Origin: an uncultured Sulfitobacter sp. | Lineage (GTDB): Bacteria > Pseudomonadota > Alphaproteobacteria > Rhodobacterales > Rhodobacteraceae | Assembly: GCF_947497275.1 (NCBI RefSeq) | Contig: NZ_CANMFS010000006.1 | Coordinates: 124,001 to 188,000, forward strand | DNA: 64,000 nucleotides | Reading direction: 5' to 3' | Shown: one piece after another, positions 53,918-57,728 of the stretch | Numbering within the stretch: position 1 is the stretch's first letter | How the letters are laid out: each line of letters begins with the position of its first letter | Position numbers and translations under genes: made by a program | The notes under the pieces: generated by a model | Seen by the model: only the letters and a program-made list of their open reading frames with translations | What the model was told of the DNA's origin: nothing | Databases searched by the model: none

Positions 53918-54235
53918 TCAGCGGCGCGAGGTCGAGAATATGCCCATCAAGAAGCCGAGACCGGCAGCGATGCCCAACGCAGTAGCGGGCTGTGTCCGAA
54001 CGAAATCTTCGGCTTGCTCATAGCTTGCGGCGGCACGGTCGCGACCGGCTGTTCTGAGCTCGGTCGCTTTAGCGCGGGCGGCATCAGTTGCCTGGTGAGT
54101 CTTCGCTGATCCATACTCGGAAATCGAGTTTGTAAGAGATGCCAGATCGTCCTTCAGGATTTCGATCTGCACTGAAAGATCCTCGACCGTGACGTCTTTT
54201 TTGTCGGAAAGGGAGGAAGTGCCTGCTTTAGCCAT
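53918..54235 (-). CDS. DUF883 (YqjD/ElaB-like) membrane-anchored protein
   Basis: 105 residues: a long soluble helix (VEDLSVQIEILKDDLASLTN, then DAARAKATELRTAGRDRAAA) and one C-terminal membrane helix with the GxxxG-type ALGIAAGLGFLMGIFSTSRR. In E. coli such proteins bind ribosomes and anchor them to the membrane in stationary phase. AGGAG precedes the ATG. Its promoter carries an exact EcfG motif. Confidence 0.9.
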   Translation of the reverse strand: MAKAGTSSLSDKKDVTVEDLSVQIEILKDDLASLTNSISEYGSAKTHQATDAARAKATELRTAGRDRAAASYEQAEDFVRTQPATALGIAAGLGFLMGIFSTSRR

Positions 54236-54271: not shown

Positions 54272-54296
54272 AACGTGCCGTGATCGTCATCGTTCC
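54272..54296 (-). promoter_or_regulatory. EcfG-type promoter of DUF883-holin
   Basis: On the minus strand GGAAC (54296-54292) then 16 bp then CGTT (54275-54272). Predicted start about 30 bp before the DUF883 ATG. Confidence 0.75.
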
Positions 54297-54329
54297 GAAC
54301 GTCGCAAATTTGTTTGGGGCGCGCAAACG

Positions 54330-54355
54330 AAAAAACCCGGCCGGTGTGGCCGGGT
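54330..54355 (-). terminator. Intrinsic terminator of phyR
   Basis: ACCCGGCC (54335-54342) and GGCCGGGT (54348-54355) form an 8-bp stem; on the minus strand it is followed by TTTTTT (54335-54330). Confidence 0.88.
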
Positions 54356-54378
54356 CTGTCAGCACAGATTTTAAGGCG

Positions 54379-55188
54379 TCAGGCGTGCAATGTCTCTGTC
54401 GAGGAGAAGAACATCGCCTGGCTTACCGCGGAAATAACCTGATCCTCGGTGTAGGGCTTCGAGATGAGGAAGGCAGGCTCGGGTTTGTCCCCGGTCAACA
54501 GCCGCTCCGGGAACGCCGTGATGAAGATGACCGGACGCTGCCCGAGTTCCGTCAGCAGATCGTTAACCGCGTCGATGCCGGACGAATTGTCGGCAAGCTG
54601 GATGTCGGCCAGAATGAGGTCGGGCACGTCGGCTTTGCCCAGCTTGACCGCCTCGTCGCGTGTGCGGGCGATCCCCGTGACGCGGTGGCCCATTTCTGCA
54701 ACGATGCTTTCGATGTCCATCGCAATGATTGCCTCATCCTCGATGATCATCACCGATCCGGTCACGCTGTCTGCCATCTCGCGGCGGGCAATCGCGACAA
54801 GCTCTTCCGCCTCGGATTCGTCGATGCCGATGATCGTAGCGATATCGGCGTAGGAAAAGCCTTCGATGGTGTACAGCAGGAGTGCTTCGCGGCTGTTGTT
54901 GGTCAGCTTGGCAAGATGGATCTGCGCCCGGGCGCGCGCACCGGATTCGCCATCTTCGACCGGCGCGCCTGCGCTGGACCAGATGCCATAGAGGGTGCGG
55001 AATGTCCCTGTCTTGACATCGGTGCCATCCAGTACCGAGCGATCTGTCAGGATCGCCTCGAGCGTTGCTGCGGCGAAATTGTCACCGCTGGTCTGGCTGC
55101 CGGTGAGGGCACGCGCGTAGCGACGCAGGTACGGAATGAATGTACTCAGCTGATCGCTGATCCCCGATGTCGTCGTATTGTCACTCAT
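54379..55188 (-). CDS. phyR: Anti-anti-sigma response regulator PhyR
   Basis: 269 residues. Residues 1-140 are an EcfG-like sigma domain (QLSTFIPYLRRYARALTGSQ, LLLYTIEGFSYADIATIIGI), residues 145-265 a receiver with acidic pocket IIEDEA, phosphoacceptor D195 in LILADIQLAD and the FxTxFPERLL loop (222-230) and K244 in SKPY typical of FAT-GUY receivers. When phosphorylated it sequesters NepR and frees EcfG. Divergent from nepR-ecfG across a shared bidirectional promoter; own terminator. Confidence 0.97.
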   Translation of the reverse strand: MSDNTTTSGISDQLSTFIPYLRRYARALTGSQTSGDNFAAATLEAILTDRSVLDGTDVKTGTFRTLYGIWSSAGAPVEDGESGARARAQIHLAKLTNNSREALLLYTIEGFSYADIATIIGIDESEAEELVAIARREMADSVTGSVMIIEDEAIIAMDIESIVAEMGHRVTGIARTRDEAVKLGKADVPDLILADIQLADNSSGIDAVNDLLTELGQRPVIFITAFPERLLTGDKPEPAFLISKPYTEDQVISAVSQAMFFSSTETLHA

Positions 55189-55212
55189 TCTGAAGTTCCT
55201 TGTATATTTCTG

Positions 55213-55245
55213 GGAACCAAACGATGTATCTGTGCGTTCGGTTCC
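55213..55245. promoter_or_regulatory. Bidirectional EcfG promoter between phyR and nepR
   Basis: Plus strand: GGAAC 55213-55217, 17-bp spacer, CGTT 55235-55238. Minus strand: GGAAC 55245-55241, 17-bp spacer, CGTT 55223-55220. The two promoters interleave in a near-palindromic 33-bp element, so EcfG can drive nepR-ecfG rightwards and phyR leftwards but probably not both at once from one molecule. Confidence 0.88.
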
Positions 55246-55291
55246 GAAGTTGGTAACATATTTCTAACAAAGCGGCGTAATCAGAGGATTT

Positions 55292-55450
55292 ATGACAGGT
55301 CAGAGACAAGATAAAGCGCGCGAGGGCGTAATCGACGAAAATCTCAAGCGGGTTTATCATGAGGCGATGGAAGAAGGTATTCCGGACCGGTTCAAGGACC
55401 TGCTTGAACAACTCAAACGTCAGGATGCGGATCAGGAAGCCAAGCGATGA
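55292..55450 (+). CDS. nepR: Anti-sigma factor NepR
   Basis: 52 residues: MTGQRQDKAREGVIDENLKR, VYHEAMEEGIPDRFKDLLEQ, LKRQDADQEAKR. The core IDENLKRVYxExxxEGIPDRFKDLLxQL is the universal NepR helix pair that binds EcfG. AGAGGA lies upstream of the ATG, and the stop overlaps the ecfG ATG in ATGA. It holds EcfG inactive until phosphorylated PhyR displaces it. Confidence 0.95.
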   Translation: MTGQRQDKAREGVIDENLKRVYHEAMEEGIPDRFKDLLEQLKRQDADQEAKR

Positions 55451-56004
55451 GCAATGCCGACCCGCGCGACGAATTGGTGGAGCATTTGCCCGCCATGCGC
55501 GCTTTCGCTATCTCATTGACCCGGAATGGTTCGCTCGCGGATGACATGGTGCAGGACACCGTGGTGAAGGCGTGGACGAACATCGAGAAGTTCCAGCCCG
55601 GCACGAACATGCGTGCGTGGCTTTTCACGATTCTGCGTAACACCTATTATTCATCGCGTCGCAAATCCAACCGCGAGGTGTCCGATGTAGACGGTGTGTT
55701 CACCGAAGGGCTTGCCGAAAAGCCCGCCCATGACGGCCATTTGCAGATGATGGATTTTCGCGAAGCCCTGGCCAAGCTCAAGGTGGAGCAACGCGAGGCG
55801 CTGCTGCTGATTGGTGCGTCGGGGTTTTCGTATGAAGAAGCAGCGGAAATGTGTGGGGTAGCGGTCGGTACGATAAAGAGCCGGACAAATCGGGCTCGGG
55901 CGCAGCTTGCCGAATTGATGGGGCTGAAAGAAGATGAAGCGATGGAGATGACTGACGATGCGACCATGTCTGTGCTGTCAGCGTCGCGCGTTTCAAACTT
56001 TTAA
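55447..56004 (+). CDS. ecfG: General stress sigma factor EcfG
   Basis: 185 residues, ECF sigma factor. Region 2: LVEHLPAMRAFAISLTRNGS, LADDMVQDTVVKAWTNIEKF and NMRAWLFTILRNTYYSSRRK; region 4: EALLLIGASGFSYEEAAEMC followed by GVAVGTIKSRTNRAR. It directs RNA polymerase to GGAAC-N16/17-CGTT promoters, several of which lie in this window. Coupled to nepR and followed two bases later by the sensor kinase gene. Confidence 0.97.
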   Translation: MSNADPRDELVEHLPAMRAFAISLTRNGSLADDMVQDTVVKAWTNIEKFQPGTNMRAWLFTILRNTYYSSRRKSNREVSDVDGVFTEGLAEKPAHDGHLQMMDFREALAKLKVEQREALLLIGASGFSYEEAAEMCGVAVGTIKSRTNRARAQLAELMGLKEDEAMEMTDDATMSVLSASRVSNF

Positions 56005-56006
56005 CG

Positions 56007-57728
56007 ATGACCTCGGGCTTTTTAAGCACAAACATTCTTGGAGGACTCGCGTTCCGGGTCCTCCTTTTTCTGTCGTTGGCGCTGTTGCCGCTGGGGCTGA
56101 TCGCCGTTTCGCAGACGCGTGAAATCGCGCGCCAGAGCCGCGAATCGGCAGAACTGTCTCTTATTGCCGTGACCGAGCAGGCGACGGCGACCGAGCGCAC
56201 CTCCATTCAGGAGGCTTTGGGTGCGGCGGATGCGCTGGCGTCGATCGTTGTTCTCGTCAGGGACGATCCACAACGCTGCTCCGACTTTCTGCGCAGCTAT
56301 GCCGCCCGGGCGGATCGGTATCGCAACGTGGGCTTTGTCGATATGGACCGGAGGATGAATTGCTCGTCTGCCCCCCGTGCGGCGGATCTGACGCGCTTTG
56401 CAGCCGTTCAGGACGCATTCGAGACACAGAAGCGCACCGTGACGGCGGCCGCCGAAGGACCGATTTCTGAACAGGAGATCGTGATCGCTACTGTTCCGGT
56501 GTTCGACAACGATCAGATGGTCGGTATTGTCAGCGTCTCCATGGCACAATCCGATCTGATCGATCCGGAACCGGCAAAACCCGCGCACAAGCCCAACTCT
56601 CTCGTGACCTTCAACCACAAGGGCGAAATCCTAATTTCAGAGCGAGCCAAAGAGACCACGCGTCTGGAATTGCCCAAAGAATACACGCTTCAACAGTTGA
56701 CACAGAACACACGTCAGGTTTTCGAAGCCGAAAGCGTCAGCGGAAAGCGGCGTGCCTACGCCGTGATCCCGCTGGTGCCGGGATCGGTTTTCGCAATGAG
56801 CATCTGGCCCTCCAATACGCCCATCCTGCAAACCAACTCATCGGGGTGGATGTCCTCACTCCTGCCGTTCATGATGTGGGCGGCAAGCCTCGTCGTGGCA
56901 TTTTGGGCGCTGAACAGGCTCGCGATCACGCACATCCGCAAGCTGGGGCGCCAAATGCGCCAATTCGCGTTGAACCGGACCCTGCCGCGCAATTCACTGG
57001 GCGGGCGCGTGCCCTACGAGATCGTCGAGATGGAGCGGTCGTTCATCGGTATGGCGGATTCCATTCTTCAGGACGAGGCGCGGCTGGAGGATAGTCTGCG
57101 TGAAAAGAATATTCTGCTCAAGGAAGTGCATCACAGGGTCAAAAACAATCTCCAATTGATCTCCTCGATCATGAACATGCAGATCCGTCAGGCCCCGACC
57201 CGGGCGAACCGATTGGTCCTGCAACGTTTGCAGGACAGGATCCTCGGCCTCGCGACCGTGCACAAAAGCCTGTATCATGGAGACGAGATGACGCGCGTGA
57301 ATGCGCGTGATCTGCTTAAGGAAATCGTTGCACGGAATCTGTCTGTCGGTCTGGCCTCACCCGATCTGGTCGACGTGAAAGAGCATTATGATGAAATTCT
57401 GGTAAGCCCGGATGATGCCGCCCCTCTGACATTGCTTGTCTCCGAAGCAGTGACGAACGCATTGAAATACACCCCGCAAAAGAAGAACCAAAAAGGCAGC
57501 ATCGATATTTCCTTGAAATACGTACAGGACGATATGGCTTGCCTGCGGATCGTGAACACCAGCGGCGGGGTACCTGCGGACGAAGGCACCGGTCTTGGGT
57601 CCAGGTTGATACAGGCGTTCGCGCGCCAATTGAACGGCGACCTCAAAATCGTCGAGGAAAGCGATACCTACGCAATCGAACTGACGTTTCCCGTGCCTCG
57701 CACGGACAAAGCGGTGTATGATTATTAG
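56007..57728 (+). CDS. HisKA_2 sensor histidine kinase (PhyK-like)
   Basis: 573 residues. Two membrane helices (residues about 15-35 and 285-305) bracket a periplasmic sensor domain of about 250 residues; then a linker and the HisKA_2 box LKEVHHRVKNNLQLISSIMN with the phosphorylated His at 376 (or 375), and an ATPase domain (SEAVTNALKYTPQ, GTGLGSRLIQAF). It probably phosphorylates PhyR. It begins two bases after ecfG in the same operon. Signal unknown. Confidence 0.93.
   Translation: MTSGFLSTNILGGLAFRVLLFLSLALLPLGLIAVSQTREIARQSRESAELSLIAVTEQATATERTSIQEALGAADALASIVVLVRDDPQRCSDFLRSYAARADRYRNVGFVDMDRRMNCSSAPRAADLTRFAAVQDAFETQKRTVTAAAEGPISEQEIVIATVPVFDNDQMVGIVSVSMAQSDLIDPEPAKPAHKPNSLVTFNHKGEILISERAKETTRLELPKEYTLQQLTQNTRQVFEAESVSGKRRAYAVIPLVPGSVFAMSIWPSNTPILQTNSSGWMSSLLPFMMWAASLVVAFWALNRLAITHIRKLGRQMRQFALNRTLPRNSLGGRVPYEIVEMERSFIGMADSILQDEARLEDSLREKNILLKEVHHRVKNNLQLISSIMNMQIRQAPTRANRLVLQRLQDRILGLATVHKSLYHGDEMTRVNARDLLKEIVARNLSVGLASPDLVDVKEHYDEILVSPDDAAPLTLLVSEAVTNALKYTPQKKNQKGSIDISLKYVQDDMACLRIVNTSGGVPADEGTGLGSRLIQAFARQLNGDLKIVEESDTYAIELTFPVPRTDKAVYDY

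Follow-up and report, generated by a model that had tools for sequence, protein, structure and literature searches.

The window, by which we mean the whole 64,000-nucleotide stretch of uncultured Sulfitobacter DNA that was analyzed, contains a PhyR-NepR-EcfG general stress response locus, with a PhyR that combines sigma-like and receiver domains encoded divergently from a nepR gene that lies directly upstream of ecfG. The first-pass annotation had named the neighbors as phyR (activator) and nepR-ecfG (inhibitor plus sigma factor), and domain matches agree with this. The genes of the locus are as follows.

54379-55188, minus strand: phyR, response regulator/anti-anti-sigma factor (PF22029, PF22233 and PF00072 over cut-off; NF006623 at 343.9 bits, cut-off 240)
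55292-55450, plus strand: nepR, anti-sigma factor of 52 aa (PF18557 at 59 bits, cut-off 25.7; no NCBIfam match)
55447-56004, plus strand: ecfG, EcfG-type ECF sigma factor (PF04542 and PF08281; NF009198 at 330.6 bits, cut-off 270)
56007-57728, plus strand: HisKA_2/HWE sensor kinase (PF07568 and PF07536)

The ecfG and nepR genes overlap by 4 bases, and the kinase gene, which starts 2 bases after ecfG, is probably in the same operon as ecfG. The kinase resembles PhyK, with an NF051872 score of 224.6 bits that is far under the cut-off of 750. Adjoining phyR is a small gene (53918-54235, minus strand) with a DUF883-type match below cut-off; a GGAAC-N16-CGTT motif on the same strand (54272-54296) lies about 36 bases upstream of it, and on this basis the small gene is perhaps another EcfG target. 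An EcfG-like site in the same sense was seen within about 400-440 bases beyond phyR in 10 of 30 loci, the window's included.

The gap between phyR and nepR-ecfG contains GGAACCAAACGATGTATCTGTGCGTTCGGTTCC (window positions 55213-55245), in which both strands carry the layout of an EcfG-type promoter, namely GGAAC, a spacer of 16-17 bases and CGTT, in the correct orientation upstream of a gene. Both copies are exact GGAAC-N17-CGTT matches, and they are interleaved, with the plus-strand site at 55213-55238 and the minus-strand site at 55220-55245. The features of this site are listed below; the loci of the first batch are described further on.

55213-55245, no strand assigned: putative interleaved bidirectional EcfG-type promoter, a 33 bp near-palindrome (based on sequence, geometry and conservation)
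55213-55217, plus strand: -35 GGAAC for nepR-ecfG, exact (mismatch-free in 76/76 interleaved first-batch loci)
55235-55238, plus strand: -10 CGTT for nepR-ecfG, exact here, differing between species
55241-55245, minus strand: -35 GGAAC for phyR, exact (likewise mismatch-free in 76/76 interleaved first-batch loci)
55220-55223, minus strand: -10 CGTT for phyR, exact here, differing between species

The minus-strand -10 sits in the plus-strand spacer (55218-55234) and the plus-strand -10 in the minus-strand spacer (55224-55240), so the window bears out the initial description of exact elements on both strands within 33 bp, each -10 lying inside the opposite spacer. The site is a near-palindrome with 11 bp arms, one mismatch between them and an 11-base middle. 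The two -10s are separate, with 11 bases between them, and there are two complete -35/-10 sets, from which the expected transcription starts would lie about 30 bp apart, at the outer ends of the site. The exact elements and the flanking genes support the form of a bidirectional EcfG-type promoter that had been proposed for this junction. In Sphingopyxis, in vitro transcription fell when a -10 was changed away from CGTT and rose when it was changed towards CGTT (PMC7083833, in excerpt). We also considered a housekeeping promoter in the phyR-nepR gap and rejected it, as the stretch 55100-55400 has a single sigma70-like site, whose start at 55332 falls within nepR.

Single GGAAC-N16/17-CGTT matches are not enriched in this genome, with 82 matches compared to 127 for the reversed control, and the interleaved pair is found at one site only. 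We searched for the exact palindrome pattern GGAAC-NN-AACG-N9-12-CGTT-NN-GTTCC in 292 genomes drawn for the order, all of which are listed in the window's own family, so that claims about the order rest on that family. The pattern was present in 52/292 genomes and 33/112 genera, at one site per matching genome, compared to 1/292 for the reversed pattern, and all 52 of these palindromes lie at the phyR/nepR-ecfG junction (L061-L090, 30 loci; L300-L311, 12 loci; and the ten zero-mismatch loci L031, L032, L033, L047, L049, L051, L093, L125, L139 and L143). When a class-wide sample of 385 genomes was searched, two carried the exact palindrome, the window's genome and G494. The G494 palindrome (L312) has a receiver-domain match to PhyR at a distance of 91 bases, and no nepR or ecfG match was found in 8,884 bases around it.

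A taxon-blind scan of named species genomes returned at least 117 palindrome stretches, compared to about 7 matches expected by chance in the whole collection by our own arithmetic with uniform bases. Among the matches listed, 104 lie at the phyR/nepR-ecfG junction, 4 have one side detected and 9 have neither, the last group including three Methylobacterium and one Marinobacter. Titles were available for 80 of the at least 117 stretches, and the genera among the matches listed include Marivita, Thioclava, Sulfitobacter, Roseobacter, Rubellimicrobium and Paracoccus, besides others; we take these titles to point to Rhodobacterales. Interleaving with up to two mismatches was likewise found in 76 of 88 first-batch gaps but in only 1 of 8,800 dinucleotide shuffles. 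The interleaved pair is not a product of chance.

To describe its conservation, we collected 147 loci from 141 of the 292 genomes, 143 of them with a divergent gap and 4 without a usable one. The survey covers genomes with the stronger, listed ecfG matches. A first batch of 90 loci (the best 30 matches, followed by roughly one per genus and some extras) gave 88 divergent gaps, a second batch comprised 20 loci chosen deliberately from exceptional genera, and a third took 37 from the rest of the list. Interleaving was found in 76/88, 0/20 and 32/35 usable gaps, respectively, or 108/143 in all at up to two mismatches, a total that includes the 20 loci from exceptional genera. One or two mismatches are present in 74 of the 108 interleaved loci. 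Both -35s are nevertheless free of mismatches in every interleaved first-batch locus, though one mismatch was permitted. The geometry varies little among the 108: the offset from the plus-strand -35 to the opposing -10 is 7 in 98 loci, 6 in nine and 8 in one, and the total length is 32 bp in 63, 33 bp in 40 and 31 bp in five. Spacer pairs are 16/16 in 43 loci, 17/17 in 34 and mixed in 31, where the main gap scans admitted spacers of 16 and 17 only; an earlier scan also admitted 15 and 18, which gave the best reading in few loci. Some of the 88 first-batch gaps also admit alternative pairings when as many as two mismatches are allowed: 16 that overlap in another way, 6 back-to-back and 5 facing.

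Within the window's genus, 15/15 loci, from 14 of 15 genomes including the window's (G036 was left out), are interleaved at up to two mismatches. The symmetry, whose loss in close relatives had been named in advance as evidence against the proposal, is thus kept. In an alignment of 14 sequences (11 from the same genus and 3 from near relatives), GGAACCAAAC is the longest stretch without variation, and the GTTCC opposite does not vary either. Altogether, the interleaved EcfG-type pair is conserved in most of the family loci examined.

A palindrome with near-perfect 11 bp arms could also serve a dimeric regulator as its operator, or form a hairpin, instead of being two promoters. The single-stranded DNA fold beats shuffles (z -2.39), of which 3 in 200 do equally well, and at arm position 7 the arms match in 37/56 cases compared to 32.1 expected (p = 0.025, not tree-corrected). 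However, the invariant bases are those of the promoter elements, arm positions 13-16 carry no excess symmetry, and 14 of 17 one-sided promoters, though they lack a palindrome, retain the C at the sixth base, so this C fits the -35. Since the expected starts are at the outer ends, neither RNA would hold the whole hairpin. A search of 54300-56100 against Rfam and one of 55100-55400 for terminator-like sites returned nothing, and the hairpin, RNA family and terminator readings are not supported. We consider the operator or hairpin explanation very improbable.

We instead favor, with a probability of roughly 0.75, a self-symmetric promoter that sigma-EcfG polymerase would enter in either orientation to autoregulate the partner switch, the two orientations being exclusive and the layout persisting mainly through lock-in. 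In this mechanism, the EcfG holoenzyme would bind in one of two opposite orientations, with region 4 on GGAAC at one end and region 2 opening CGTT 17 bp further in, and transcription would exit across the other promoter's -35 to give either the nepR-ecfG(-kinase) mRNA or the phyR mRNA. A polymerase bound one way would cover the entire 33 bp and block the other orientation meanwhile, so that the two orientations should be mutually exclusive; the geometry makes simultaneous binding of opposing polymerases sterically implausible. The occlusion proposed in the first-pass annotation is therefore sound on steric grounds, and it has been described for sigma70 bidirectional promoters (PMC12825309, in excerpt). 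Stress would free EcfG from NepR, and the activator PhyR and the inhibitor NepR together with EcfG would both be boosted from one site.

Such a pair could be kept, slightly shortened or lost on one side, but it would be hard to pull apart. Since adding or removing bases in the middle, which is 10-11 bases long, changes the two spacers together, and almost only spacers of 16 and 17 are seen, the layout should be hard to leave by small steps, and loss of one side would be the easy exit. The 35 exceptions among the 143 gaps comprise 12 collapsed loci, 18 one-sided loci and 5 with weak -10s, and on the phyR tree the promoter-form classes need six changes. In the collapsed form (L111, L113, L147, L319-L326 and L346; sequences viewed for 11 of the 12, all but L346), the -35 starts are 22-23 bp apart, and GTTCC at one end can, by its sequence, serve as the -35 for one strand while also providing an xGTT -10 for the other. 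In the one-sided form (L059, L060, L118, L148, L150, L327-L338 and L368), only the nepR-ecfG promoter was found at up to one mismatch, and 16 of the 18 come from one genus. The sequences inspected from that genus share a motif resembling GTGCGCAC immediately after the -10. The last five exceptions still have both -35s 27-28 bp apart, with weak -10s. Lock-in plus loss of one side could account for these data without a special role for exclusion.

The one-sided loci also bear on whether both directions are used. The nepR-ecfG side is kept in all 18, the minus-strand promoter being the one not found at up to one mismatch, and a phyR-side promoter alone occurs in 0/143 gaps, as might be expected if only the nepR-ecfG direction were strong in vivo and phyR were transcribed mainly from another promoter, its EcfG element being minor. 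Expression data from Rhodobacter sphaeroides, whose RSP_1274 (phyR) and RSP_1273-1272 represent the same locus, point in the same direction: phyR mRNA rises 2-3 fold with singlet oxygen, superoxide and diamide and not with membrane stress, while ecfG mRNA rises with membrane stress only, in a PhyR-dependent manner, so phyR mRNA did not follow ecfG mRNA up (PMC5830050, in excerpt). The phyR direction may therefore be weak or independent of EcfG, or another promoter may mask it. On the other hand, the phyR side does not look weaker in interleaved loci, where its -35 is perfect in 76/76 and its -10 carries 29 mismatches compared to 38 on the nepR-ecfG side, and EcfG control of both units is given as the usual case (PMC4814048, in excerpt). 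We regard a mainly one-directional promoter as unlikely.

The genome G094, which is probably R. sphaeroides, carries the palindrome with both elements perfect and 16-base spacers, outside the phyR match; if the element described for R. sphaeroides lies inside phyR, it may be distinct from this palindrome, which we count as a point against our preferred explanation. Its nepR-like ORF has 68 aa, as in PMC5830050, and its ecfG stop is TGA compared to TAG in that paper; the excerpted account of the R. sphaeroides locus there contains no mention that we found of an interleaved promoter.

The first-pass annotation had further suggested that occlusion leads to alternate production of the two transcripts in a fixed ratio, as a built-in control of ratio or noise. 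Exclusion would predict a random choice of direction at each loading event, not alternation. If exclusion at one site fixed the phyR to nepR-ecfG ratio at every EcfG level and anticorrelated bursts, selection for this could keep the interleaving, and the geometry is indeed strongly conserved. With arbitrary constants, a simple binding model gives exclusive sites a ratio of 1.50 whatever the sigma level, while the ratio for independent sites drifts from 1.49 to 0.51. At one of the E. coli bidirectional promoters, noise was reduced by polymerase interference (PMC12825309, in excerpt). Several results argue against this explanation, however. On the phyR tree, the two -10s changed jointly 9 times compared to 6.9 expected (p = 0.21, 108 loci), and their consensus states are unassociated (Fisher p = 0.33); since the changes are not significantly coincident and the states not associated, the ratio seems able to vary from species to species. 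We had considered -10 covariation as selection for balanced strengths, with first bases matched in 37/56 equal-arm loci compared to 24.3 expected and 0/2,000 shuffles reaching this value, and dropped it because of the tree result.

The phyR side is also absent from 18/143 loci, and the R. sphaeroides phyR and ecfG mRNAs answer different stresses (PMC5830050, in excerpt), although the probable R. sphaeroides genome has a perfect palindrome. An alternating output at a fixed ratio is not supported. Basal activity was too low for competition at five E. coli bidirectional promoters, where competition appears once one direction is strengthened (PMC12825309, in excerpt). At 10% total occupancy, the binding model would have removal of one side lift the other only 1.05-fold, compared to 1.82-fold at 90% occupancy. 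Single simulation runs gave output correlations never below -0.10 and a Fano factor that was slightly higher, not lower, with exclusion, which speaks against the idea that the layout exists to control noise. Control of ratio or noise is possible but currently disfavored: we think it unlikely that exclusion fixes the ratio and is what selection maintains, and doubt still more the broader proposal that an exclusive two-way promoter, kept by selection across the family, fixes the activator to inhibitor gene ratio in the DNA itself. If the latter were true, the partner switch would keep its set-point at any free sigma level.

The self-symmetric autoregulatory promoter thus remains our preferred explanation, and the points that we count against it are the R. 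sphaeroides mRNA data, the 74/108 loci with mismatches, the lack of enrichment of the single motif and the alternative pairings. It would represent a natural, widely conserved merger of two opposing promoters for one alternative sigma factor into 31-33 bp, at the point from which a stress response is controlled. Its natural variants (intact, with unequal -10s, collapsed and one-sided) would allow direct tests of how polymerase exclusion affects ratio and noise.

In alphaproteobacteria, nepR and ecfG mostly form one operon divergent from phyR, with both units under EcfG-dependent promoters of the consensus GAAC-N16,17-C/GGTT (PMC4814048, in excerpt), and the window shares these genes, their divergent order and the consensus. 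To compare geometries, we started from the 30 best NepR loci (L153-L182) of 66 matching genomes among the 385 and removed 4 that belong to the window's family and 6 that lack a usable gap. Of the remaining 20 gaps from other families, 15 have a back-to-back pair at up to two mismatches, with the -35s separated by 6-9 bp in 10 of these, and one has an interleaved pair, while shuffles of these gaps gave interleaving in 3/2,000. The lone interleaved case (G487; L178/L313) has one mismatch, comes from a genome of about 1.5 Mb and is possibly convergent or due to chance. The divergent promoters of other families are thus mostly back-to-back, whereas this site is interleaved, and the same genes appear with two recurrent promoter geometries. 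We found no description of an interleaved EcfG promoter in the literature searched, which is weak evidence of absence given that most subscription journals lay outside the search.

The closest known systems are the bidirectional promoters of E. coli and other prokaryotes described by Warman, Grainger and colleagues (PMC12825309, in excerpt), which have in common with this site pseudo-symmetric DNA and, as predicted here, opposite and mutually exclusive polymerase loading and divergent RNAs. Those promoters are described for the housekeeping sigma factor, and their starts flank a shared -10 or fall within it; the commonest distance between starts is 18 bp, and 10 and 23 bp are frequent too. In contrast, the site described here is of ECF type, has by its sequence separate -10s (55220-55223 and 55235-55238), is conserved in many genera and would control the sigma factor's own regulators. 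By this comparison with the excerpted account, it would work like that class but is not a member in the strict sense. Bidirectional promoters are already known, and two interleaved complete ECF-type sets are a new variant of them.
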